A stretch of 64,000 bases of DNA, from the NCBI RefSeq assembly GCF_900129725.1, contig NZ_FQWQ01000004.1, positions 62,001 to 126,000 of the forward strand, in the 5' to 3' direction. Source of the DNA: Chryseolinea serpens. GTDB taxonomy: Bacteria; Bacteroidota; Bacteroidia; Cytophagales; Cyclobacteriaceae. Position numbers and translations under genes: made by a program. This document shows, piece by piece, positions 3,625-16,337 of this stretch (position 1 is its first letter; every line of letters begins with the position of its first letter). The notes under the pieces were generated by a model. It made no database searches. It saw nothing but the letters and a program-made list of their open reading frames with translations, and had not been told where the DNA came from.

Positions 3625-4081
3625 GTTTGTGTGTTTTTAAATTAACATCACAAAGGTCAGCCAGGGTAGGGTGCCAAATGTTTCCGTATTGAGCTTCGTT
3701 GTTTCCAAAATGCCGGAAGGGGCATGCCGGGACCGATAAAGCCGAAAATAATAGCGCTGATGAATGATTTTGGAACGAAGGACCCGTCAATATTCCGATC
3801 CTGTTTCTTACAGCCATGGATATTGAAGGCAATGTTGACAAGGGGGGTACCAGGCCGCAGCCGTAACGTTAAGCAAGAAGACCAGCGTGCTAATCAGCCA
3901 GGAAAAGGGACTTTGTGTGACAAACGAGACGCTGGAACCAGAGACTCTTTGCGCTCATCCTCATCCAACTGAGTGTCCCCACGTTGGGTTTGTCACGCCA
4001 TAATAATTACGCTTATATTGAGTTTGATCAGTTAATTGTTTACATTTCTTGGTACCCACGCAAGGCAGCACTTGCAAACAA
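3625..4081. other. Intergenic region upstream of the hyf-like operon
   Basis: About 450 bases between two divergent units (SDR/AraC to the left, hyf-like operon to the right). It must hold both promoters. The possible short reading frames here have no recognisable protein features. No clear terminator, RNA gene or repeat was seen. Confidence 0.5.
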
Positions 4082-6094
4082 ATGCTCTTTAAGGAAATTT
4101 TAAGGATCTCCTTTGTAGCGCTCCTACTGATTCCCTTCCTGAAAATTACCTGGAAGGGACCCGTTACCGTACTGATCATCCTCCTGAACATTTTAGTAAG
4201 CACTTCGGTGGCGTGGCCTTGTTTAACGGGTGACGCTTTAGAGACTATCGTGCAAGGTTCGTATATCTTTGGAGAAATTCCGCTTCGTCTTGATTCTCTT
4301 TCTGCCTGGTTCATTCTGACGATCAATTTTACATTTTTAACGGGTGCGTGGTTTGGCTGGCAATACATGAAATCGTATGAAAGCAACCCGGCTAATCTGA
4401 GTTTTCATTATATATCATTAATAATTCTTCATACCGCTATGTTGGCCATCTGTGTTGTCCAGCATAGTATAGCCTTCCTGATCGCCTGGGAAGTAATGGC
4501 GCTTTCGGCTTTCTTCCTGGTCATATTTGAACATGGAAAAACGGAGACCATCAGAGCAGGCATCAACTATCTGATTCAATCGCACATCTGCATACTCCTG
4601 CTCACCATCGCCTTCATCTGGGTAGCGTCGCGAACAAACTCGTATGACTTTCAGGCTATCCATAAATTCTCAATGGATTTTTCGCCGTTGGTAAGCCTGG
4701 TGTTATTTCTGATATTCTTTGCGGGCTTTGGCATAAAGGCAGGCTTTGTCCCCTTTCATACGTGGCTGCCCTACGCACACCCGGCGGCTCCTTCTCACAT
4801 TTCAGGAATGATGTCCGGTGTGATTATAAAGCTTGGCATCTACGGGCTCTTGCGAATGATATTTTTAATTCATGGCGATTATATCGTTATGGGTTATGTT
4901 ATCATTACAGTCTCCGTGATCTCCGGCCTTTATGGTGTGATGCTCGCCATTATTCAACACAATTTGAAAAAACTGCTGGCCTATCACAGTATTGAAAACA
5001 TTGGTATCATCGGCATTGGCATTGGTTTGGGAACGCTGGGCATGGGTTTGCATAACACGACGCTCATCTATTGTGGTTTTGGCGGCGGGCTGCTGCATGT
5101 GCTTAATCACTCGCTCTTCAAGTCACTCTTATTCTATAGTGCAGGAACGGTTTACCAGGCCACGCACCTGCTCGATATTGACAAACTTGGAGGGTTGGTC
5201 AAGAAAATGCCGCATTCGGCCTTCTTATTTCTTCTGGCGGCATTAGCCATTTGCGGGCTGCCCCCGTTCAATGGTTTTGTGTCGGAGTTTATGATTTACT
5301 TCGGCTTGTTCAGTAGCTTAAAGGAAGCCAGTACACTCACGCTCGTTTTTTCATTGGGATCCATCATCGGCCTGGTGCTGATTGGCGGTCTGGCCGTACT
5401 CTGTTTTACCAAGGCATTTGGTACCGTTTTTCTGGGCACACCCCGGCATCAGTTACACGAAGAACCAGGAGAAGCCCATGCGTTGAAACTGATTCCGCAA
5501 TACCTGGTGGCGGTCATGATACTCTTCATTGGACTCGTTCCACAATTTTTTCTTCATTATCTCATCAGACCTATCGCACTGATTGCTGACCACACCACGC
5601 CGGCGGACACAACCCTCACGGAGAGCATTTCCGCCATAAGTTTTGCGGGGTTTGTTTTTGTTGGTATTGTCTTAACACTCTTTGTTATTCGGAAAATGGT
5701 GACATCATCACGGCCTGTTCGAACGGATGCAACGTGGGGCTGTGGCTATGTAGGCAACGCCAGCAAGATGCAATATACGGCCAGCTCCTTTATCCGGACC
5801 TATCGCAAACTGGCAGAACCGCTGCTTTCGATTCATAAAAATAAGATTATGGTCTCCGGGGTATTTCCGACGCAATTGGAACATAAGACCCATCCCTATG
5901 ACCGGATTGAAGAGAAATTGATTGATATCCCATTAAAGAACATAAAACTATTCCTGAGCAAGTTTGGATTTCTTCAGAGTGGCGACCTGCAGCAGTACGT
6001 ACTGAATGGCGTACTCTTTATTACAGCGATCATCGTCATTCCATTGGTTGTAAAATCAGTAGAGATTATTATTTCATTTATCGAGCAACTTTAA
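4082..6094 (+). CDS. hyfB: Hydrogenase-4 component B-like / NuoL-type ion-pumping subunit
   Basis: 670-residue polytopic membrane protein of the proton-conducting antiporter-like family (NuoL/M/N, HyfB, MrpA/D). The conserved pump residues are visible: the Glu in AWEVMALSAFF, the Lys in FGIKAGFVPFHTWLP and the Lys in SGVIIKLGIYG, plus the HNLKKLLAYHSIENIGII segment. It should form a transmembrane ion channel. The start is placed at the ATG at 4082, which begins directly with a membrane segment; an in-frame TTG at 4049 would add 11 unlikely residues. It is the first gene of a tight six-gene operon and ends 1 base before the next start. The C-terminal cytosolic region carries ATWGCGYVGNASKMQYTASS, as is usual for HyfB-like proteins. 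Confidence 0.88.
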   Translation: MLFKEILRISFVALLLIPFLKITWKGPVTVLIILLNILVSTSVAWPCLTGDALETIVQGSYIFGEIPLRLDSLSAWFILTINFTFLTGAWFGWQYMKSYESNPANLSFHYISLIILHTAMLAICVVQHSIAFLIAWEVMALSAFFLVIFEHGKTETIRAGINYLIQSHICILLLTIAFIWVASRTNSYDFQAIHKFSMDFSPLVSLVLFLIFFAGFGIKAGFVPFHTWLPYAHPAAPSHISGMMSGVIIKLGIYGLLRMIFLIHGDYIVMGYVIITVSVISGLYGVMLAIIQHNLKKLLAYHSIENIGIIGIGIGLGTLGMGLHNTTLIYCGFGGGLLHVLNHSLFKSLLFYSAGTVYQATHLLDIDKLGGLVKKMPHSAFLFLLAALAICGLPPFNGFVSEFMIYFGLFSSLKEASTLTLVFSLGSIIGLVLIGGLAVLCFTKAFGTVFLGTPRHQLHEEPGEAHALKLIPQYLVAVMILFIGLVPQFFLHYLIRPIALIADHTTPADTTLTESISAISFAGFVFVGIVLTLFVIRKMVTSSRPVRTDATWGCGYVGNASKMQYTASSFIRTYRKLAEPLLSIHKNKIMVSGVFPTQLEHKTHPYDRIEEKLIDIPLKNIKLFLSKFGFLQSGDLQQYVLNGVLFITAIIVIPLVVKSVEIIISFIEQL

Positions 6095-6095
6095 T

Positions 6096-7001
6096 ATGCT
6101 AAGCCTTGGCCTGATCATTATGGCGAGTTTATTTTTTGGAGGGATCATCCTTCGAACCAAGAGCCTTGCTTCAGGTCGTAAGGGGCCGGGTGTTTTTCAG
6201 CCCTTAAAAGACGTCATCAGGCTGCTTAAAAAAGGCGCCGTTTACAGTCGCACGACGAGTTTCATTTTTCAAGTTGCCCCCACAGTCTATTTTGGTTCGA
6301 TTGTCATGGCTGTGCTTTTAATTCCTTTTGGAGAAAGTAACAGTCTTTTGTCTTTTAAAGGCGACTTTATACTTTTTGCCTATGTGCTGGCGATCGGGAA
6401 ATTTTTTATGATCATTTCTTCATTGGATACCGGCAGTGCCTTTGAAGGGATGGGGGCCAGCCGCGAAGCGCTATATTCATTGCTGGTTGAGCCGGCCTTT
6501 TTTCTTATCCTGGGCTCCTTTGCGTTACTCACCGGTCATACATCCTTTCATGAAATTTTCGCGTCCCTTCATCTGAGTTCCGCCTTTTCATACGCACTCG
6601 CCACGCTCGCTACGTTTGTCTTCGTGCTGATCGCCATGATCGAAAACAGTCGTCTACCGATCGATGACCCGAAGACACACCTGGAGCTCACGATGATCCA
6701 CGAAGTAATGATCCTAGACAATAGCGGCTATGATCTGGGGTTGATCTTGTATGCAACAAATTTAAAGTTTGCGATGTACGGTGCTTTGGTGACCAACTTC
6801 TTCATTGCAGGAATGAGCCTGCCGGTTGCCATCCTTTTATTCATTGTCATTCAAGTGGCATTTGCTGCTACGGCCGGACTGATTGAGTCGTTTTTAGCTC
6901 GCTTTCGCATGAATCACAATGCACAATTTATTTTCTCATTGTCGTCTATCTCGCTGGTTATTTTTTTCGGTGTCTTATTGATCCTTGGAAAATTCTCATG
7001 A
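6096..7001 (+). CDS. hyfC: Hydrogenase-4 component C-like / NuoH-type membrane anchor
   Basis: 301-residue membrane protein with about eight helices, of the NuoH/HycD/HyfC family that forms the link between the soluble arm and the ion-pump modules. Visible family features are KGPGVFQPLKDVIRLLKKG near the N-terminus, GMGASREALYSLLVEPAFF, and IENSRLPIDDPKTHLELTMI, whose acidic residues lie on the loop facing the soluble arm and are conserved in complex I. It follows the HyfB-like gene with a 1-base gap and its stop lies 1 base before the next ATG. Confidence 0.88.
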   Translation: MLSLGLIIMASLFFGGIILRTKSLASGRKGPGVFQPLKDVIRLLKKGAVYSRTTSFIFQVAPTVYFGSIVMAVLLIPFGESNSLLSFKGDFILFAYVLAIGKFFMIISSLDTGSAFEGMGASREALYSLLVEPAFFLILGSFALLTGHTSFHEIFASLHLSSAFSYALATLATFVFVLIAMIENSRLPIDDPKTHLELTMIHEVMILDNSGYDLGLILYATNLKFAMYGALVTNFFIAGMSLPVAILLFIVIQVAFAATAGLIESFLARFRMNHNAQFIFSLSSISLVIFFGVLLILGKFS

Positions 7002-7002
7002 T

Positions 7003-7635
7003 ATGACCTACGTATTGCTCATTTTGTTTACGATCACATTTTTCTACCTGGCCATTGCCAATCGGCTCGATAGCATCATAAACTTGCTCGTATTCCAGGG
7101 CATACTATTATTCGGAATGGCATTCATTGAACTGCGCGAGCTCCATGTAGTAAACCTTGTTTTTATCCTGTTGGAAACCATCGTATTCAAAACCATAGCC
7201 ATTCCCGTTTTTTTGCGCTACGTTATTCGGAAGAACAACTTGACGAGGGAGTCTGAGCCCTTCCTGTCAAATTTTGTTTCACTGATCATCATTACGCTGA
7301 TGATTGTCATTGTCACTTTTATCATCAGCAACGCTATTCACGATACGCACGTCAAGAATATCTTCTTTGTTGTGGCGCTGTCAACCTTATTTACGGGACT
7401 CTATCTCATTGTCAGCAGGCGAATGATCATCACGCACGTGATGGGTTTTCTTGTGATCGAAAACGGTGTTTTCATTTTAACGCTTGCCGTGGGAAATGAG
7501 ATGCCCGCACTGGTCAACATTGGGATCTTGTTGGATATTTTTGTGACCGCACTCTTGCTTGGAATTTTTGTCAATAAAATCGGCGACGTCCTGAAGGACA
7601 TGGACGTAAATAAACTGAGAAATTTAAAAGACTAG
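7003..7635 (+). CDS. hyfE: Hydrogenase-4 component E-like membrane subunit
   Basis: 210-residue membrane protein with about six helices, resembling HyfE, whose C-terminal half corresponds to the NuoK-type subunit (MGFLVIENGVFIL contains the Glu expected in a membrane helix). The ATG at 7003 is used; a TTG 18 bases upstream would overlap the preceding gene. In the family this small subunit lies between the anchor and the pumps and contributes to the ion path. Position three in the operon matches hyfB-C-E-F-G-I order. Confidence 0.82.
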   Translation: MTYVLLILFTITFFYLAIANRLDSIINLLVFQGILLFGMAFIELRELHVVNLVFILLETIVFKTIAIPVFLRYVIRKNNLTRESEPFLSNFVSLIIITLMIVIVTFIISNAIHDTHVKNIFFVVALSTLFTGLYLIVSRRMIITHVMGFLVIENGVFILTLAVGNEMPALVNIGILLDIFVTALLLGIFVNKIGDVLKDMDVNKLRNLKD

Positions 7636-7636
7636 C

Positions 7637-9082
7637 GTGATTGAGGCGTATCTTATAGCGGCTTTTGCCATGAGTGGCGTGTTATTCTTCTCCCGGAAGA
7701 AGGCCGTTATATATACCCTTGTGATCCTGTTTTTAATAGGGCAATGTTCGCTGACGGTATACGAATACCAACATCTCAACCTGGAGGAAGCGGGCTATTT
7801 TAAGGCGGATGCATTCTCCGTGATTTTTTTATCCGTACTCAGTCTGATCAGCCTGGCGTCGGCTTATCACAGTTATGTATTCCATACGAAGCGGAATGGG
7901 TTGGTGAGAAATGTTGCCATATACTTCTCTGCCTGGGTCATGTTTATTGTCGCGATGAGCGGTGTATACCTCTCAAGCCACATCGGGCTAACCTGGGTAT
8001 TCATTGAACTCACCACATTGTGTGCTTCGGCTTTGATCTATCACAACCGAAATGAGCGATCGATAGAAGGGACCTGGAAATACATTTTTGTTTGTTCCGT
8101 TAGCATCACGTTGGCTTTTATCGGAATACTCTTTCTGAGCGTTGCCATCCAGGAAGCTGGGTCAACCGATCTTTATTATGGGGCATTGCTCAGTCACGCG
8201 CCGAAACTTAACCCATTCTGGTTGAAGCTGGCGTTTATTTTCATATTCACCGGGTATACTTGCAAGGCCGGATTGGTTCCCATGTTCACGGCCGGTGTCG
8301 ATGCAAAAGATAAAGCGCCGAGTCCGGCGTCGGCCCTTTTTTCAAGCGCATTGATGAATGTCGGCTTTACCGGGATCTTCCGGTTTTACGAAATTATTGC
8401 GCAGACGACCATTCTTCCATGGGCGAACGTCATCATGTTGGTGGCGGCTGTGCTTTCCATTTTTGTCGCAGCGGTCTACATGCTGAAGGTCAATAACGCC
8501 AAGCGCATGCTGGCCTATTCCAGCATCGAGCACATGGGCATTGTGCTGCTGGGCATCGTATCGGGGGGGATTGGTGCTTTTGGAGCAATCCTGCATCTCA
8601 TCCTGCATTCATTTGCCAAGGTTAGCTTGTTCTTTCAGATCGGACAAGTGTACAGGGTTTATGGAAGTAAAAGTATTTTAGATATCGGTAACTATTTCAA
8701 ATACAATACGACAGGCGCTTTTGTCCTGATCCTCAGCTTTATTTGCGTTACCGGCATGCCGCCTTCCGGTATGTTCATCAGTGAGTTTATGATCTTCAGA
8801 GGTGTTTTTCAATCGCATCACGTCCTGATACTGATCTTGGTCATTTCGCTGATCACCATGATCATCTGGGCTTTTGGTAAAAATATGTTTAAGATGGTGT
8901 TTACAGCACCGGCTGATTTTGATGATCGTCAGGTCGAAAAGATAAGCGCTGTAGAATCACTTTCGCAATTTTTCTTTCTGGCGCTGTTGGTCTACCTGGG
9001 ACTGAACCCGCCCGCGCAACTGGTATCGCTGATCGAAGAAGCAATAAAAAACTTACCGCATGAAGTATGGAAACGGTCGTGA
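7637..9082 (+). CDS. hyfF: Hydrogenase-4 component F-like / NuoN-type ion-pumping subunit
   Basis: 481-residue polytopic membrane protein, the second antiporter-like pump of the operon. Conserved residues include Glu in TWVFIELTTLCASAL, Lys in GYTCKAGLVPMF and Lys in NNAKRMLAYSSIEHMGIV; the position of the second channel Lys is Asn (SALMNVGF). The start is a GTG one base after the preceding stop; there is no ATG nearby that keeps the first helix. The end overlaps the next gene by 16 bases, indicating coupled translation. Confidence 0.86.
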   Translation: MIEAYLIAAFAMSGVLFFSRKKAVIYTLVILFLIGQCSLTVYEYQHLNLEEAGYFKADAFSVIFLSVLSLISLASAYHSYVFHTKRNGLVRNVAIYFSAWVMFIVAMSGVYLSSHIGLTWVFIELTTLCASALIYHNRNERSIEGTWKYIFVCSVSITLAFIGILFLSVAIQEAGSTDLYYGALLSHAPKLNPFWLKLAFIFIFTGYTCKAGLVPMFTAGVDAKDKAPSPASALFSSALMNVGFTGIFRFYEIIAQTTILPWANVIMLVAAVLSIFVAAVYMLKVNNAKRMLAYSSIEHMGIVLLGIVSGGIGAFGAILHLILHSFAKVSLFFQIGQVYRVYGSKSILDIGNYFKYNTTGAFVLILSFICVTGMPPSGMFISEFMIFRGVFQSHHVLILILVISLITMIIWAFGKNMFKMVFTAPADFDDRQVEKISAVESLSQFFFLALLVYLGLNPPAQLVSLIEEAIKNLPHEVWKRS

Positions 9083-10563
9083 TCAAAAATAATCAAAACA
9101 TACCGCTTGCCTCCATTCCGGTGAGTGATTATGAAAAGTTTCTTCTTGTTAACACATCGTTTGTTAAAGAGTCATCTTTTCATTGTGTTTCCTACTATGG
9201 TGTTGCCGTACCGGAAAAATTAAGACTGATTTGTTGCATGGCCGACGATGATCATGGAACGATTCATGTATCGTCATCCCTGGTGGACAGACAAGCCACG
9301 TTACCTTCCTTTACGGCGCATCACCTGTCATTCGAAAAATTCGAACGTGAGATCCATGAAAACTTCGGCATAGCCTATCCTGATCATCCGTGGTTGAAGC
9401 CGGTGCGATTTCCATTCAACCGTGCAAATCATCAAAGTACCATTGCCCATTACCCATTCTTTAATTCTGCAAGCGAAGAACTTCATGAAGTGGGTGTTGG
9501 CCCTATTCATGCGGGTGTAATTGAGCCGGGCCATTTCAGGTTTATATGCAATGGTGAACAGATCATGCACATGGAGATTCAACTGGGCTTTCAGCATCGG
9601 GGTATTGAATCGTTATTCCTGGAAAAGAAAAAATTATTACAACGTGCCACGTTGGCAGAAACCATTGCCGGTGACACCGCCGTTGGACATACCACCGCGT
9701 TTGTGAACCTGTGGGAAAGCCTGTGCAACTATACACCCGACGAAGACCTGCAATTTGCCAGAACACTGGCGCTTGAACTGGAAAGAATTGCCATGCACAC
9801 CGCTGATCTTAGTGCATTGTGTACCGATGTGGCCTATCAGCTTGGGAGTGCCGTATACGGAAGGTTGAGAACACCCATTATTAATTACATGCAGATCTGG
9901 TGCGGCAACCGCCTTAGCAAGGGATTGATTCGGCCCGGCAAATTGAATTTTCCATTCACTAGAGATTTAGGTGATCAACTGTCAAGACTATTGGACGTAT
10001 ACGAAAAGGATTTTAATGAAGTAAGCGACAATACCTTCCGCTTGCCCAGTGTGCTATCGCGATTCGAAAAGACAGGTGTTGTCACCCATGGACAAATTAC
10101 AGAAATTGGCGCGGTGGGAATGGCCGCACGCATGAGCAACGTTAGGCGCGACGTCCGTGCAACCCACCCTCATGACCTCTATGCTAAACTGGAACACGTA
10201 CCTATACTAAAACACCATGGCGATGTTTATTCCAGAGCACAAATAAGAAGAGAAGAGATCAATCAGTCTATTGGTTACATCAGAAGCCTCTTGAGGGACA
10301 TCCCCGGGGAAAGTAAAAATCGTAAGCCCCTGGGGTTGCCCAAGGCCAACGCATTTTGCATATCATTAACAGAGGGTTGGCGTGGCGAAATTTGTCATTG
10401 CGCCATAACGGATGAGCACGGTGAATTCGTTCACTACAAGATCAAAGACCCCTCTCACCATAATTGGCTGGCACTGGGACTGTCCGTAAGAAACAATGAG
10501 ATCTCGGATTTTCCGGTGTGCAACAAAAGTTTTAATCTTTCCTATTGCGGACATGATTTGTAA
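9067..10563 (+). CDS. hyfG: Hydrogenase large subunit-like protein (NuoC-NuoD fusion type) lacking NiFe ligands
   Basis: 498 residues: an N-terminal NuoC-like domain (about 1-130) fused to a NuoD/hydrogenase large-subunit-like domain (GVGPIHAG...LGFQHRGIESL). In group-4 NiFe hydrogenases the first metal site reads E-R-x-C-G-x-C-x-x-x-H; here residues 198-208 read ETIAGDTAVGH, so both cysteines are replaced (Ala201, Thr204) while Glu and His remain. The C-terminal D-P-C-x-x-C site is also absent; the protein ends DFPVCNKSFNLSYCGHDL with two cysteines nine residues apart and no cleavable tail. It therefore should not bind NiFe and belongs with the hydrogenase-related (Ehr-like) proteins. No maturation genes are nearby. 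Confidence 0.86.
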   Translation: METVVIKNNQNIPLASIPVSDYEKFLLVNTSFVKESSFHCVSYYGVAVPEKLRLICCMADDDHGTIHVSSSLVDRQATLPSFTAHHLSFEKFEREIHENFGIAYPDHPWLKPVRFPFNRANHQSTIAHYPFFNSASEELHEVGVGPIHAGVIEPGHFRFICNGEQIMHMEIQLGFQHRGIESLFLEKKKLLQRATLAETIAGDTAVGHTTAFVNLWESLCNYTPDEDLQFARTLALELERIAMHTADLSALCTDVAYQLGSAVYGRLRTPIINYMQIWCGNRLSKGLIRPGKLNFPFTRDLGDQLSRLLDVYEKDFNEVSDNTFRLPSVLSRFEKTGVVTHGQITEIGAVGMAARMSNVRRDVRATHPHDLYAKLEHVPILKHHGDVYSRAQIRREEINQSIGYIRSLLRDIPGESKNRKPLGLPKANAFCISLTEGWRGEICHCAITDEHGEFVHYKIKDPSHHNWLALGLSVRNNEISDFPVCNKSFNLSYCGHDL

Positions 10564-10566
10564 TAT

Positions 10567-11319
10567 ATGATCGAGGATATAAAAATAGTGATGCACCAGG
10601 GCAAACAATTTATCCCTGATGTAACGGCGGCAAAGGTACCCGGCATATTTCGGGGAAGACCTGTGATTAGTCAAGCCGATGTAGACGAGCAGGCCCTGGT
10701 CGAACTCTGTCCTACCGGCGCTATACGCTCCAATCCATTCTCTCTTGATCTGGGAAAATGCACGTTCTGTGGTGAATGTGCTTTCGCCAATCCGGAAAAA
10801 GTCAAATTTACATCTGACTATAAACTGGCGACCAACGAACGTGAAAATCTGATCATTAAAGCCGGAGAAGATAAACCGATGGGGTTGAATCCCGACAAAA
10901 TCAGAAAGGAAATTCATGAATATTTCGGCGGATCATTGAAGCTGAGACAAATTTCTGCCGCCGGCGACAACAGTTGTGAGTTGGAGCTCAATGCCTGTGG
11001 TAATGTTAATTTTGATATGGGCCGCTTTGGTATTGAGTTTGTTGCGTCACCACGCCATGCCGACGGTATTGTCATCACGGGTCCTATTTCTGAGAACATG
11101 GCACAACCCACTCAAATTTGTTATGATGCTGTTCCGGATCCCAAGATCATTATTCTGGCCGGTACGGATGCCATCAGCGGCGGGATACTGGCCGGAAGCA
11201 AAGCGCTGAACAGAACCTTTCTGGATAAATACCCTATTGATCTATACGTGCCTGGAAATCCCGTTCATCCGCTTACGTTCATTAACGGCGTGCTTGAGTT
11301 GATCAAAAGTAGAAGATGA
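10567..11319 (+). CDS. hyfI: Ferredoxin-NuoB-like fusion, proximal FeS ligands mostly lost
   Basis: 250 residues. The N-terminal part can hold one [4Fe-4S] cluster: Cys48 (LCPTGAI) and Cys65, Cys68, Cys71 (CTFCGEC). The C-terminal half is NuoB/HyfI-like (GRFGIEFVASPRHADGIVITGP, DPKIIILAG), but of the four cysteines that bind the proximal (N2-type) cluster only one is kept: the positions are Asp134, Cys137, Asp201 (GTDAISGG where GxCAxSGG is usual) and Asn231 (PGNP instead of PGCP). An extra Cys144 lies close by. Electron transfer to the large subunit in the usual way looks impossible. Last gene of the operon, 3 bases after the large subunit. Confidence 0.85.
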   Translation: MIEDIKIVMHQGKQFIPDVTAAKVPGIFRGRPVISQADVDEQALVELCPTGAIRSNPFSLDLGKCTFCGECAFANPEKVKFTSDYKLATNERENLIIKAGEDKPMGLNPDKIRKEIHEYFGGSLKLRQISAAGDNSCELELNACGNVNFDMGRFGIEFVASPRHADGIVITGPISENMAQPTQICYDAVPDPKIIILAGTDAISGGILAGSKALNRTFLDKYPIDLYVPGNPVHPLTFINGVLELIKSRR

Positions 11320-11464
11320 TAAAAACGCCTGGCCAAAGACGTTCCCATCCCGTCGAAATCTTCATTCAGCAAAGACATTTTTAAGGATACGTTAAGACAA
11401 ATTAAAGCTTGCTTTAAGTAGTTCTTCATCGCGTTTTTATACCTTGGAGCGCGTTGGGAATGCC

Positions 11465-11827
11465 ATGAGAAAGGTTTTGATTTTCATATTGCTCGGAATT
11501 CACCTGAATTTTTCTGCGTTCATTCCACAGTTCGATGAAGTGGATAGGATCGACCGGAACGGCAATAAAGTCGATGATATCAATAGCCTTTTTGAATTTA
11601 TCTATGAAGTTGCGCTTGGCAATTCCGACGCCACCCCGGAAGATGAAGATAACGACCATGTCAGATATTTCCATATCGTAAGAATGGGAACATACTTCTG
11701 TCAAAACGTACAAGCCGTGAAGGATCTCGATGCCGGATTATATCGCGTGATCCGTTGCCCCATAACGAAAGAAGAAAAAATCCATCCTGTTTTCTTTGAG
11801 ATCCCTTCTCCTCCGCCCAAAGCATAG
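11465..11827 (+). CDS. Small secreted protein of unknown function
   Basis: 120 residues from the ATG at 11465 (an upstream TTG at 11444 is less likely because it would precede the signal peptide). Residues 1-18 (MRKVLIFILLGIHLNFSA) look like a signal peptide; the mature part is acidic, with FFEFIYEV-like and MGTYFCQNV...YRVIRCPITKEEK segments and two cysteines that could pair outside the cytoplasm, and a Pro-rich end. No family is recognised. It stands 145 bases after the hyf-like operon in the same direction and may be read from the same transcript, as no terminator is seen between them. Confidence 0.6.
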   Translation: MRKVLIFILLGIHLNFSAFIPQFDEVDRIDRNGNKVDDINSLFEFIYEVALGNSDATPEDEDNDHVRYFHIVRMGTYFCQNVQAVKDLDAGLYRVIRCPITKEEKIHPVFFEIPSPPPKA

Positions 11828-11924: not shown

Positions 11925-12126
11925 CTCATTTCTGCTTTTTGTTAACGCTCTCCGCTATGTCCGGGTGTCTGTCTTGATACGTTGGGCATTTGGTCTGGCG
12001 TGAAAAATGACGACTAGGTTTTGATAATTTTTTTCACGGCGTAGCCCTGGCGAATACATCAGGCGTGCCAAAATCTTGATTTTGAAATTTTTCGGAAACC
12101 ATCATTTAACCATTAATTCCAGTACG

Positions 12127-13206
12127 ATGAAACTCATATTGATATATTTCCAGGCTTGTCTCTTGATTATTTTTAGTTCGGCTTGTTCCCATCCGAGATC
12201 GTTCCATGGCAAGCGGGCCAATGTTATTTCGGACTCCATTATTAATCATCTGCAGACCGCTTCCGTCAGCTTAGAGGATGACAATAGCTTTATAAAACTA
12301 AACGGTAAAATACAGCCAAATGAAACAAAGCAGGTGAGGGTGTTTTCATTGGTCAGCGGGAAGGTCCACTCCGTGAATGTCGAATTAGGAGACATTGTGA
12401 AAAAAGGCCAGCTGTTGGCCGTCCTGAACAGTATCGAAGTGGCCGAGGTTTCTAATAATTTGACCCTGGCAGAATCAAATGTTACGATGGCCAGAAAGAA
12501 TTTGGAAATGGCCAAGGACATGTATGAAGGCAGGCTGGCAAATGAACGGGAATATCTGAATGCGAAGATCTCCTATAACAATGCAGTGTCTGAATTGAAT
12601 CGCGCCAGCCAGGTGGCCTCCATAACGGGTGGCGACCGGTCGAATTACCCGGTTAAAGCTCCGATCAATGGTTTTGTCATTGAAAAAAACATTACCAATA
12701 ATTCTGAGGTGCGACAAGATAATAACTCCGATCTGTTCGTCATCGCGGATTTGTCCAATGTCTGGATCATAGCCAATGTTTATGAATCCGACTTGAACAA
12801 GGTGGACGTCGGCGACCCGGTGACGGTTAAGACCTTAGCCAATGCTGAAAAGAATTACCCCGGCACGATCGATAAAATATACAATGTGCTCGACCCCGAA
12901 ACCCGCACCATGAAAGTCCGGATCAGCATGGATAATCCGGATAACGAATTAAAACCAGAGATGTTCGCGACCGTCAAGGTGAATATCCGGTCAACCGGCA
13001 AGTCCCTCGCCGTTCCTTCGCAGGCGCTGGTGATGGACAATAGCAAGTATTACGTGGTCGTGCGAAAAGCCGACAAGCTGGAAGCAAAGGAGATCAACCT
13101 GATCAAGAGGGTGGATAACAAAGCCTTTATTTCCGGGCTTTCCTTAGGCGACGAAGTGGTCGTCAATTCCCAGGTATTCCTGTATCAGGCATTAAGTACT
13201 AACTAG
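12127..13206 (+). CDS. Efflux RND transporter periplasmic adaptor (membrane fusion) lipoprotein
   Basis: 359 residues from the ATG at 12127; the N-terminus is a lipoprotein signal with the acceptor cysteine at residue 20 (LLIIFSSAC). The body has the barrel-sandwich lipoyl halves (GKVHSVNVELGDIVKKGQLLA and APINGFVIEKN), a short helical hairpin between them, and the beta-barrel (VWIIANVYESDLNKVDVG) of HlyD/CusB-type adaptors. It should join the inner-membrane pump encoded 8 bases downstream to an outer-membrane channel. An in-frame TTG at 12076 was not chosen because it would precede the signal. No regulator or outer-membrane factor lies next to it. Confidence 0.88.
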   Translation: MKLILIYFQACLLIIFSSACSHPRSFHGKRANVISDSIINHLQTASVSLEDDNSFIKLNGKIQPNETKQVRVFSLVSGKVHSVNVELGDIVKKGQLLAVLNSIEVAEVSNNLTLAESNVTMARKNLEMAKDMYEGRLANEREYLNAKISYNNAVSELNRASQVASITGGDRSNYPVKAPINGFVIEKNITNNSEVRQDNNSDLFVIADLSNVWIIANVYESDLNKVDVGDPVTVKTLANAEKNYPGTIDKIYNVLDPETRTMKVRISMDNPDNELKPEMFATVKVNIRSTGKSLAVPSQALVMDNSKYYVVVRKADKLEAKEINLIKRVDNKAFISGLSLGDEVVVNSQVFLYQALSTN

Positions 13207-13214
13207 CAAACGCC

Positions 13215-16200
13215 ATGTTTAAGATCATCAAAAATTGCATTGCCTTCTCGCTAAAGAACAGGCTCTTTATATTCCTGGCAACATTCCTGTTGATCATCTG
13301 GGGTGTCGTGGCTTTTAAAAATATTCCCATCGAAGCCTTTCCGGATGTTACCAATACGCAAATAACGATCATTACACAATGGCCCGGCAGAAGCGCAGAA
13401 GAAGTTGAAAAATTTGTATCCCTTCGGATCGAAGTGGCCCTGAACCCGGTACAGAAAAAAACCTCCGTACGTTCAACAACCGTCTTTGGTCTTTCCGTGG
13501 TAAAAGTCATTTTCGAAGACGGTGTCGACGATGCTTTTGCCCGTCAGCAGGTAAATAACATGTTGCGCGGGGTTGAGCTGCCCGACAATGCGGAGCCTGA
13601 TATCCAACCGCCGATTGGCCCGACCGGTGAGATTTTCAGGTACACGTTGAGCAGTACGGCCAGGACCGTCAAAGAATTAAAGACCATTCAGGATTGGGTC
13701 GTTCAGCGTCAATTCCTGGGGGTACCGGGCGTCGGTGATGTCGTTAGTTTTGGAGGGGAAGTAAAGACCTATGAGATCAAAGTCAACCCGCAAGAATTGG
13801 CGTCTTATAATATTACGCCGCTAGATGTTTACAATGCCGCATCTAAAAGCAACATCAACGTCGGGGGAGATGTCATCGTGGATAATTCGCAAGCCTATGT
13901 GGTAAGAGGCATTGGCTTGTTGAATAATGTGGACGAGATCGAAAATATCATTGTCACCAATATCAATGGAACCCCCATCCTCGTAAAGGAAGTGGCGGAA
14001 GTGGATATTTCTAACCTACCCAGGCTGGGACAGGTGGGAAGGGATTTGCAAAATGACGTCGTCGAAGGGATCATCGTCATGCGCAAAGGAGAGAACCCAA
14101 GCGAGGTGATCAGGAGGGTGCAGGCCAAGATCGATTACCTCAATGAAAAAGTGCTACCTGCCGATGTAAAAATAGATACCTTCTACAATCGCAATAATCT
14201 CATTGACTTTGCTACCCATACCGTCCTGCACAATATGTTGGAGGGAATAATTTTTGTCACGGTCATTGTCTTTCTGTTTATGGCCGACTGGCGCACAACG
14301 GTCATCGTGGCCATGGTCATCCCGTTGTCTTTACTCTTTGCCTTTATTTGCCTTACCCTAAAGGGAATGAGTGCAAATCTTCTGTCGATGGGGGCAATTG
14401 ACTTTGGCATCATCATCGATGGGGCCGTGGTCATGGTGGAAGGTCTCTTTGTGGTTTTTGATCAGCGCGCCCGTACGATGGGGATGGAGCGGTTCAATAA
14501 GCTTTCCAAATTGGGCATCGTCAAAAATACAGGAGGTGAACTGGGTAAAGCCATTTTCTTTTCCAAGTTGATCATCATAGCAGCCCTGTTGCCTATTTTT
14601 TCTTTTCAGAAAGTAGAGGGGAAGATGTTTTCACCCCTGGCCTGGACGCTTGGCTTTGCGCTGTTGGGCGCTTTGATTCTGACACTGACACTCGTTCCCT
14701 TACTCAGTAGCTTGCTGCTACGGCAAAATGTCAGGGAAAAACATAACCCGTTTGTGGAGTTTATCACCAACAGGGTCATGACCATGTTCTCCTGGACCTA
14801 TCACCATAAAAGGGTGTCGCTTTTAATAGTGTCGGCCCTGGTAGCCATCGGATTGTTTTCGTTTAAATTCCTGGGAACTGAATTTCTGCCGGAGTTGGAC
14901 GAAGGAGCCATTTACATCCGGGCTACTTGCCCGCTAAGTGTTTCGCTCGAAGAATCGCGCGCCCTGGCAAATAAAATGAGGAAGGTCATCCGGGCGTTTC
15001 CGGAAGTTAAACAAGTGATGTCCCAGACCGGCCGCCCGAACGATGGAACGGATGCCACAGGGTTCTACAATATTGAATTTCATGTGGACATCTATCCAAA
15101 AGATCAATGGACCAGTGGTATCACAAAAGAAGAACTCATCGAGCAGATGCAGGAAAAGCTGGATGTATTCCCGGGTATTAATTTGAATTTTTCCCAGCCG
15201 ATCATGGACAATGTGGAAGAGGCCGTCTCGGGCGTAAAGGGGTCGCTCGTGGTAAAGATCTACGGAGAGAAACTGCCCGTAACGGAGAAAAAGGCAAATG
15301 AGATCTATGACGTGATGAAGAACATCGCCGGTGTTGAAGACCTGGGTGTCATCAGGAACCTTGGCCAGCCTGAACTGCGCATCGATTTAGACGCTGCAAA
15401 AATGGCGTTGTATGGCGTCACCACGGCCGATGCGAACGCTATTATTGAAATGGCCATCGGCGGCAAGGCCATCTCTCAGATCTACGAAGGCGAAAAGAAA
15501 TTCCAATTGCGTTTGCGCTATGAAGAGGCGTATCGAAACAATGTGGAAGCGATCGGTAATTTGATGGTGCCTACTTTACGAGGCGCCCAGGTCCCTATAA
15601 AAAATATTGCGTCGATCGAAAAGCTGACGGGGCCAAGCCTGATCTTCAGGGATGACAATCGCAGGTATAGTGCGGTGAAGTTTTCCGTGAGAGGTCGCGA
15701 CATGGGCAGCACGATCGCCGAAGCCCAGCGAAAGGTGAGTGAATCGGTTCAGCTGCATAAAGGATACGAAGTCCAATGGGCAGGTGACTTTGAAAATCAA
15801 CAGCGCGCCACACATCGGTTGCAGCAAGTTGTGCCAGTGAGTTTGCTGCTGATTTTTTTGATCCTCTTCGTGATGTTTGGCGACATAAAAGATGCGGGCA
15901 TCGTGTTGCTGAACGTTCCTTTTGCTATGATTGGAGGCATCGCCGCGTTGCTGATCACGGGTACGAATTTTAGCATCTCCGCCGGCATTGGGTTTATCGC
16001 GTTGTTTGGGATTTGTATTCAAAACGGGGTGATCCTCATCTCCGTTTTCAAAAACAATTTGCACAAGATCCAAAGGGGCGAGTTCACCCATCACTCCCTG
16101 GAAAATGCCATTACCGATGGCGTAAGAACGAGAGTGAGACCGGTCATCATGACCGCCCTGATGGCTGCCATCGGTTTAATGCCGGCTGCCCTTTCAACAG

Positions 16201-16337
16201 GGATCGGATCGGAAACCTCCAAGCCGTTGGCCATCGTTGTCATTGGAGGATTAGTGACGGCCACGATATTAACACTGCTGGTCTTTCCGTTGTTCTTCTA
16301 CGTGTCGTATCGGAAATTGGGACAAGATCTGGAGTGA
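13215..16337 (+). CDS. CzcA/CusA family heavy-metal RND efflux pump
   Basis: 1040 residues, full length for the heavy-metal efflux RND family. The fourth membrane helix carries DFGIIIDGAVVMVE with Asp396, Asp402 and Glu409, the charged pattern of CzcA-type divalent-cation exporters rather than the CusA monovalent type, so Zn, Co, Cd or Ni are likelier substrates than Cu or Ag (inference from family signatures). The PDVTNTQITI and GxxSEEVE-like N-terminal porter motif and two sets of membrane helices separated by large periplasmic loops are present. It is co-transcribed with the adaptor. An outer-membrane TolC-like partner must be encoded elsewhere. Confidence 0.92.
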   Translation: MFKIIKNCIAFSLKNRLFIFLATFLLIIWGVVAFKNIPIEAFPDVTNTQITIITQWPGRSAEEVEKFVSLRIEVALNPVQKKTSVRSTTVFGLSVVKVIFEDGVDDAFARQQVNNMLRGVELPDNAEPDIQPPIGPTGEIFRYTLSSTARTVKELKTIQDWVVQRQFLGVPGVGDVVSFGGEVKTYEIKVNPQELASYNITPLDVYNAASKSNINVGGDVIVDNSQAYVVRGIGLLNNVDEIENIIVTNINGTPILVKEVAEVDISNLPRLGQVGRDLQNDVVEGIIVMRKGENPSEVIRRVQAKIDYLNEKVLPADVKIDTFYNRNNLIDFATHTVLHNMLEGIIFVTVIVFLFMADWRTTVIVAMVIPLSLLFAFICLTLKGMSANLLSMGAIDFGIIIDGAVVMVEGLFVVFDQRARTMGMERFNKLSKLGIVKNTGGELGKAIFFSKLIIIAALLPIFSFQKVEGKMFSPLAWTLGFALLGALILTLTLVPLLSSLLLRQNVREKHNPFVEFITNRVMTMFSWTYHHKRVSLLIVSALVAIGLFSFKFLGTEFLPELDEGAIYIRATCPLSVSLEESRALANKMRKVIRAFPEVKQVMSQTGRPNDGTDATGFYNIEFHVDIYPKDQWTSGITKEELIEQMQEKLDVFPGINLNFSQPIMDNVEEAVSGVKGSLVVKIYGEKLPVTEKKANEIYDVMKNIAGVEDLGVIRNLGQPELRIDLDAAKMALYGVTTADANAIIEMAIGGKAISQIYEGEKKFQLRLRYEEAYRNNVEAIGNLMVPTLRGAQVPIKNIASIEKLTGPSLIFRDDNRRYSAVKFSVRGRDMGSTIAEAQRKVSESVQLHKGYEVQWAGDFENQQRATHRLQQVVPVSLLLIFLILFVMFGDIKDAGIVLLNVPFAMIGGIAALLITGTNFSISAGIGFIALFGICIQNGVILISVFKNNLHKIQRGEFTHHSLENAITDGVRTRVRPVIMTALMAAIGLMPAALSTGIGSETSKPLAIVVIGGLVTATILTLLVFPLFFYVSYRKLGQDLE

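Follow-up and report, generated by a model that had tools for sequence, protein, structure and literature searches.

What could drive a complex I-type membrane machine that has lost both its NiFe site and the last cluster of its electron path? This question is raised by six open genes, adjacent and tightly spaced, at positions 4082-11319 (+ strand) of the window, namely the whole 64,000-nucleotide stretch of Chryseolinea serpens DNA analysed here (contig NZ_FQWQ01000004.1, positions 62,001 to 126,000). The genes are arranged as hyfB-C-E-F-G, followed by a gene for a HyfH/HyfI fusion protein (HyfHI). An initial annotation of this DNA had described the hyf gene order and the tight spacing and had assigned the genes to the energy-converting hydrogenase-related (Ehr) complexes without a NiFe site. 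The operon was confirmed, with the fusion as its last gene, and the assignment is supported by the subunit set and by residues A201, T204, S492, and G495 of HyfG. In addition, we found that the ligands of the proximal cluster are lost from HyfHI, a feature that was absent from that annotation and that is more surprising than the loss of the NiFe site. The coupling of electron transfer at cluster N2 and the quinone site to distant proton pumping in the membrane is the central question of complex I. Judged from the residues described below, ordinary electron transfer is probably not what drives the complex in the window. We propose, with a probability of about 0.42, that it is an Ehr-type complex of Bacteroidota that is no longer a quinone or hydrogen redox enzyme, and that the chemistry of its old pocket is coupled to ion flow, perhaps for the uptake of an anion.

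Former cofactor sites of the peripheral arm

The best PDB matches of HyfHI were MbhJ of the Pyrococcus membrane-bound hydrogenase (1e-21) and HycG of the Escherichia coli formate hydrogenlyase (FHL; 2e-17). In the phmmer alignments to these two proteins, the four cysteines that bind the proximal [4Fe-4S] cluster fall on D134, C137, D201, and N231 of HyfHI. Neither the four-cysteine proximal cluster of group 4 hydrogenases nor the N2 ligands of the NuoB-like subunit of respiratory complex I were found here. The sites in HyfHI and in the large subunit HyfG are as follows (branch rows are alignment rows of the Asp/Asp/Asn kind, and sister rows are related rows with all four cysteines, CCCC):

10966..10977, + strand: former proximal-cluster ligands 1 and 2 of HyfHI, D134 and C137, versus C-N-G-C of MbhJ and HycG
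11167..11169, + strand: former proximal-cluster ligand 3, D201 (D in 90 of 91 branch rows, E in 1)
11257..11259, + strand: former proximal-cluster ligand 4, N231 (N in 90 of 91 branch rows, Y in 1)
10708..10779, + strand: ligands of the sole [4Fe-4S] cluster kept in HyfHI, C48, C65, C68, and C71 (91 of 91 branch rows and 33 of 33 other rows)
9667..9678, + strand: former first NiFe motif of HyfG, A201-G-D203-T204, aligned to CGIC of HycE (D203 in 84 of 84 branch rows)
10540..10551, + strand: former second NiFe motif of HyfG, S492-Y-C-G495 (S492 and G495 each in 84 of 84)
9820..9822, + strand: branch-specific cysteine C252 of HyfG (82 of 84 branch rows, 0 of 29 sister rows)
10393..10395, + strand: branch cysteine C443 of HyfG, four residues past R439 (83 of 84 branch rows, 2 of 29 sister rows)

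Altogether, 234 genome-contig loci encode a relative. In the window and the best 80 of these loci, D134 is found in 81 of 81 proteins, C137 in 79, and D201 and N231 in 80 each. Among 132 rows (duplicates still included), 98 have no cysteine at ligands 1, 3, and 4, and 33 have all four; none is intermediate, and the remaining one (L164, CC-C) is cut at a contig end. With further genomes added and seven duplicate HyfHI rows removed, as was done for the trees and for the branch-row counts listed above, D134 occurs in all 91 branch rows, the window included, and C137 in 85 (otherwise three N, two A, and one S). Since C137 is lost in six rows while D134, D201, and N231 hold, no thiolate is required at the former ligand site, and it is unlikely that this is an iron-sulfur site. 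Furthermore, the two Asp and the Asn that are fixed there argue that the site is not neutral.

The cluster that is kept in the HyfH part is presumably of the N6b type by its pattern. In FHL, the steps of the relay are all shorter than 14 Å, and the HycG cluster stands at the place of N2 (PMC9474812). Without this cluster, the distance should be too great for electrons to pass usefully; we estimate well over 20 Å from the N6b-type cluster to the pocket. In our view, the peripheral arm is therefore no longer a wire. The initial annotation had suggested an ion pump driven by an unknown donor. The Ehr-type complex without NiFe stands, but with the proximal cluster gone (D/x/D/N versus C/C/C/C), it is less likely that an ordinary electron donor drives it.

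The large subunit HyfG matched best to HycE of E. coli FHL (9e-33) and MbhL of Pyrococcus (1e-26) in PDB. In none of the 84 branch rows is position 201 a Cys (A, S, or T occurs there), and position 204 is T, S, or A, with Cys in two rows. In hydrogenase large subunits, the second CxxC motif is followed by a tail that is cleaved off. The motif S492-Y-C-G495, matched by eye to D-P-C-Y-S-C of HycE at the end of the alignment, lies only three residues from the end of HyfG, and thus there is no C-terminal peptide to cleave. The four NiFe cysteines in two CxxC motifs, by which group 4 [NiFe] hydrogenases are recognized, are absent, as had been noted before. These counts exclude the outgroup L009 and all HyfG rows shorter than 400 residues. 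L032, whose HyfG has one in-frame stop, was entered with an X in the HyfG tree and the counts and left out of earlier HyfG alignments.

The surroundings of the former NiFe site are kept. E153, H156, D203, H208, W438, R439, and H444 are found in all 84 branch rows and D254 in 83. We take E153 to correspond to the proton-relay Glu and R439 to the active-site Arg of hydrogenases, and D254 to the quinone-site Asp of complex I. In addition, a strictly conserved carboxylate has been described where complex I has a histidine (PMC9474812). In the nearest outside row (L113), position 153 is Lys. The HyfG pocket is under constraint and not decaying. A relic whose peripheral arm is losing its function would account for two cofactors lost one after the other. 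However, the frames in the window are open, the operon is conserved in many Bacteroidota, HyfHI is 68-80% identical in the best 80 loci, and the pocket and pump residues are almost invariant. We rejected this explanation on conservation and consider it very improbable.

Besides C252 and C443, HyfG has C57 (79 of 84 branch rows, 0 of 29 sister rows) and C445 (77 of 84, 4 of 29), and all four cysteines were gained on the same branch as the cluster loss. C252 and C443 would allow a metal site of another kind. The chief rival to our proposal is a rebuilt wire or metal site, in which a cluster or metal centre on C161, C252, C443, and perhaps C445 or C40/C56/C57 would keep the complex a redox pump. 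It would fit both the abundance of C252, C443, C57, and C445 in the branch against few or none in the sister rows and the [4Fe-4S] cluster of the HyfH part, kept in 91 of 91 rows. However, C252 is Ser in two of 84 rows and C443 is Val in one, which would be unexpected of obligate ligands. C161 is shared by 28 of 29 sister rows, so its origin does not coincide with the loss, and a meeting of these cysteines in space is putative. We regard this rival as doubtful.

HypF is needed for the NiFe cofactor. It was over the cut-off in 14 of 25 carrier genomes and not in 11, among them the genome of the window, which is 99.33% complete. In addition, neither Hyp nor formate dehydrogenase families had a Pfam match among 30 further window proteins (the larger open reading frames, not all of them), in line with the statement of the initial annotation that the window holds no maturation or formate dehydrogenase gene. 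So far, no other residues have been found to supply NiFe ligands. We also considered C252 and C443 in this role and judged it unlikely, given that HypF is missing in 11 of 25 carrier genomes, although genes can be missed in draft genomes.

The membrane arm and the order of losses

The membrane arm consists of two antiporter-type subunits (HyfB and HyfF) with HyfC and HyfE, and the peripheral arm of HyfG and HyfHI. The six genes are as follows:

4082..6094, + strand: HyfB-like antiporter-type membrane subunit, 670 aa (Pfam Proton_antipo_M PF00361, 1.1e-51), with a further in-frame TTG at 4049
6096..7001, + strand: HyfC (NuoH-like) membrane subunit with the E-channel acids (NADHdh PF00146, 5e-34)
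6985..7635, + strand: HyfE (NuoK-like) membrane subunit (NCBIfam hydrogenase 4 membrane subunit, 5e-18, below the curated cut-off); the TTG at 6985 is a less likely start than the ATG at 7003, which lies just past the stop of HyfC
7637..9082, + strand: HyfF antiporter-type membrane subunit (PF00361, 2.7e-40)
9067..10563, + strand: HyfG large subunit, NuoC-like plus NuoD-like, without NiFe cysteines (Pfam and NCBIfam 49 and 30 kDa families)
10567..11319, + strand: HyfH/HyfI fusion, ferredoxin-like part plus small subunit (20 kDa family PF01058, 2.4e-18; Fer4, 7.9e-05)

Most of the tested channel positions are invariant. For instance, E137, K219, K250, H343, K347, E402, and K444 of HyfB are present in 59 of 59 rows, E124, E132, E183, D190, D191, E197, E203, D208, and E264 of HyfC in 62 of 62, E64, K69, E159, and D184 of HyfE in 62 of 62, and E124, K210, K289, H324, K328, and E383 of HyfF in 64 of 64. 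E117 of HyfC is less fixed (56 of 62 rows). The earlier claim that the Glu and Lys residues of ion pumps are kept is thus slightly overstated: it stands for most positions in the 59-64 rows, but Asn241 of HyfF (64 of 64 rows) occupies what we take to be the canonical TM8 Lys position. Most likely, the membrane arm still conducts ions. Five loci (L182, L183, L191, L048, and L094) carry a second HyfB-like antiporter subunit in tandem, so the number of channel subunits varies within the branch.

The operon type and the intact pump would also fit an ordinary Ehr redox pump, in which ferredoxin passes electrons through the single cluster to a quinone or another acceptor at the old pocket and so drives ion pumping. 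The station that lies between the kept cluster and the pocket in relatives is gone, however. In addition, the quinone tyrosine of complex I, at the position that we assume for it, had no counterpart in a by-eye alignment, and genes for a donor or an acceptor are not repeatedly found next to the operon. There is a possible model for such a pump in Mbx, a hydrogenase-related complex reported as a ferredoxin:NADP+ oxidoreductase (PMC6349859). All in all, we consider an ordinary redox pump quite unlikely.

The result of phylogenetic analysis was that the Asp/Asp/Asn branch is a single clade in both gene trees. In the HyfHI tree, 91 branch rows were separated from 34 others with a split support of 100/96, the bootstrap being not fully settled. 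In the HyfG tree, from which the cluster columns are absent, 84 rows were separated from 29 with an SH-aLRT of 93, just below the 95 mark of the tool (L009, L127, and L128 were left out). With the root placed among the other CCCC rows, the nearest outside row, L113 (genome G246), is CCCC and has already lost the NiFe cysteines, and the other sister rows (L114-L126 and L151-L163) are likewise CCCC without NiFe cysteines. Because this sister lineage lacks the NiFe cysteines and has the four cluster cysteines, the NiFe site was lost first and the proximal cluster second, once in our sample.

Orthologues of the whole operon occur in many Bacteroidota, and the operon is thus not a matter of chance. 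With a HyfHI relative called at E <= 1e-20 and even sampling of Bacteroidota genomes only, 18 of 392 genomes of the phylum had a relative (2 of the branch, 16 of the cysteine kind). For the window's class, the count was 16 of 395 (15 of the branch, 1 of the cysteine kind), and for another class, it was 37 of 245. Of these 37, 30 have a locus, and one of the 30 belongs to the branch; among the seven without a locus, G161 was labelled via another sample and six were unlabelled, and five were used for gene order only. In the family sample, close relatives were found in 3 of 148 genomes (G000, which is that of the window, G008, and G087).

Several side observations concern distribution. G087 carries two copies, the second of which (L187, C81) is ordered HyfG-HyfHI-HyfB on a short contig. 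One locus, L084, is titled Marinimicrobia, for which transfer or mis-binning is possible. In L186 (G847) and L181, a HyfHI relative (CCCC, 49% identical) stands alone, and the other five genes were not seen next to it. Finally, the genome of the window has three more NuoB-like genes (G000 C4:392541, C7:579702, and C4:638207), which suggests several complex I-type operons.

Neighbouring genes and a possible role

No recurrent partner gene was found in the branch: apart from the subunits themselves, the protein cluster seen most often, which by eye is a Crp-type regulator, occurred in 9 of 83 loci, many of them with short flanks. The survey of genes conserved beside the operon that the initial annotation had asked for gave no common neighbour in the window's branch. 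After the operon, an open reading frame of 127 aa (11444-11827) had no Pfam or NCBIfam match at E <= 0.001. It is followed at 12076-16337 by genes for a CusB/HlyD-type fusion protein and an AcrB-type efflux pump, the latter clustered in just one other of the 83 loci.

Outside the branch, the side upstream of HyfB is visible in 25 sister loci, and by tblastn 24 of these have an HTH-EIIA gene immediately before HyfB (L134-L146, L207, L209-L216, L218, and L219; L133 lacks it). In two of two deeper loci, such a gene separates HyfB from HyfC. In four of these genes, Pfam found HTH_17 plus a PTS EIIA_2 (PtsN-like) domain. Furthermore, a SulP gene adjoins the operon in 6 of 29 sister loci, upstream and ahead of the HTH-EIIA gene in L134, L137, L138, L139, and L146, and directly downstream of HyfHI in L133, the nearest CCCC relative. 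The L133 SulP was searched for in 14 genomes, of which nine had a match at E <= 1e-20 and five did not. In two of seven deeper loci, SulP stands between HyfG and HyfHI; in L148 it is a SulP-STAS-EIIA fusion gene by Pfam (6939-9137), and in L224 by similarity. Within the branch, SulP is the next gene downstream in L184 and L189, whereas in L188 one gene intervenes; in L189 it is followed by a carbonic anhydrase (Pro_CA PF00484, 4e-11). In addition, a short protein directly downstream in L033, L042, and L060 resembles the C-terminal end of SulP; that of L060 matched positions 390-565 of TIGR00815 (1.7e-07, below the cut-off), with no STAS in Pfam. The two SulP types near operons are only 30% identical. 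The varied placement, at three sites of the operon, and the existence of two SulP types suggest a repeated association and not a single hitch-hiking event. In titles and abstract openings, we found no report of SulP with Ehr or NuoL, nor a description of an Ehr link to phosphotransfer regulation and anion transport.

Because SulP, carbonic anhydrase, and EIIA stand beside early-branching and sister relatives, the job of the complex is likely to be anion or bicarbonate uptake. By these neighbours, anion/bicarbonate uptake or ion balance is more likely than hydrogen or formate metabolism. In the explanation that we prefer, the membrane arm would still move H+ or Na+, and the peripheral arm would no longer deliver electrons to the pocket. 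The old pocket would carry out acid-base or ligand-binding chemistry coupled to ion flow, the Asp/Asp/Asn set may hold a hard cation or pass protons above the E-channel, and the remaining cluster may be structural or a redox sensor. Driving or gating the uptake of an anion such as bicarbonate may be the job of the whole, and this is the weakest step.

Several points weigh against this explanation. The invariant [4Fe-4S] motif would be odd if there were no electron path, and C252, C443, C445, and C57, gained on the branch of the cluster loss, could rebuild a wire or a metal site. The window itself has neither a SulP nor an EIIA gene, HTH-EIIA was found in 0 of 93 branch loci (66 of which show HyfB and more than 800 bases before it), and full SulP in 3 of 93, all of them early branches (one record is counted twice among the 93, L034 being the same as L190). 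The hint at function thus comes from relatives. Another contig of the same genome (L195) does carry SulP with a carbonic anhydrase (PF00484, 2.3e-14) and a porin-like gene by eye. However, such a SulP occurs in 38 of 148 family genomes (E <= 1e-90), 35 of which have no close relative of the operon, and so this set is unspecific and says little; that the three family carriers all have it is weak evidence. Moreover, the AlphaFold model of fused HyfG and HyfHI (69 aligned rows; mean pLDDT 72.8, below 50 at 124-163 and 478-527) is poor at the site, and it was not used as evidence.

A stronger form of the proposal drops redox driving entirely: the pocket would be a non-redox site coupled to membrane potential, for instance for CO2 or bicarbonate, with Asp/Asp/Asn as a cation or proton site at the place of N2. 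We consider this unlikely. By analogy with DAB2, the old NiFe pocket of such a membrane-potential-coupled machine might even be a new hydrolytic site, for example for CO2 hydration. DAB2, in which a zinc carbonic anhydrase and a complex I-like subunit are coupled via the protonmotive force, is a precedent for complex I-type channels without redox driving (PMC13144422), and SulP and Pro_CA at L189 as well as the conserved Cys, His, Asp, and Arg of the pocket would agree with it. However, DabA (PF10070) was absent from the Pfam matches of the six subunits and of the 30 window proteins searched, metal binding in HyfG is putative, and the separate carbonic anhydrase gene adjoining in L189 implies that the complex need not be one. 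A hydrolytic pocket is therefore improbable.

Comparison with known systems

Ehr complexes, such as that of Geobacter sulfurreducens, have group 4 hydrogenase- and complex I-like subunits, lack the NiFe ligands, and have no established role; a redox reaction coupled to ion transport is suspected (PMC6349859; see also PMC7894505 for complexes without NiFe ligands). The operon agrees with this definition in its subunit set and in the absent ligands. What sets it apart from known Ehr is the replacement of the proximal-cluster ligands and a single protein that joins the ferredoxin-like and the small subunit. No report of proximal-cluster loss in Ehr was found in open-access titles and abstract openings. 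Thus, Ehr without NiFe is known, and an Ehr-type complex without the proximal cluster would be new here.

Like E. coli FHL and Hyf, the operon encodes a HyfB/C/E/F-type membrane arm and HycE-like and HycG-like subunits. Unlike them, it has no NiFe cysteines and no proximal cluster, and no formate dehydrogenase gene was found in the window. In addition, its HyfH part has one [4Fe-4S] cluster, whereas HycF has two (PMC9474812).

With respiratory complex I (NuoB/C/D/H/I/K/L-N), it shares the homologous core and the channel residues. It differs in the lack of N2 ligands and of an NADH-oxidising module, which Pfam found neither in the operon nor among the 30 larger other window proteins. D254 presumably takes the place of the quinone-site Asp, and the quinone tyrosine would be without a counterpart. 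Our results also suggest that a set of Bacteroidota genes that homology would label "hydrogenase-4" does not belong to hydrogen metabolism.

DAB or vectorial carbonic anhydrases and cyanobacterial NDH-1MS also have complex I-type channels, which there are linked to the uptake of inorganic carbon (PMC13144422). The SulP genes and, in one case, the carbonic anhydrase gene beside the operon's relatives are a point in common. Unlike in DAB, the whole HyfG/HyfHI arm is kept, and the carbon link lies in neighbours in other branches only. This natural complex keeps the pump, the E-channel, and the pocket without the last cluster of the wire, its two halves having been separated by evolution and not by engineering, and if it still moves ions, the coupling elements that are needed without redox could be read from it. 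To our knowledge, no other user of complex I channels that is free of electron transfer keeps a whole peripheral arm. Should the stronger, fully non-redox form of the proposal be true, it would add to Mrp antiporters and DAB a third mode of running complex I channels without electron transfer.

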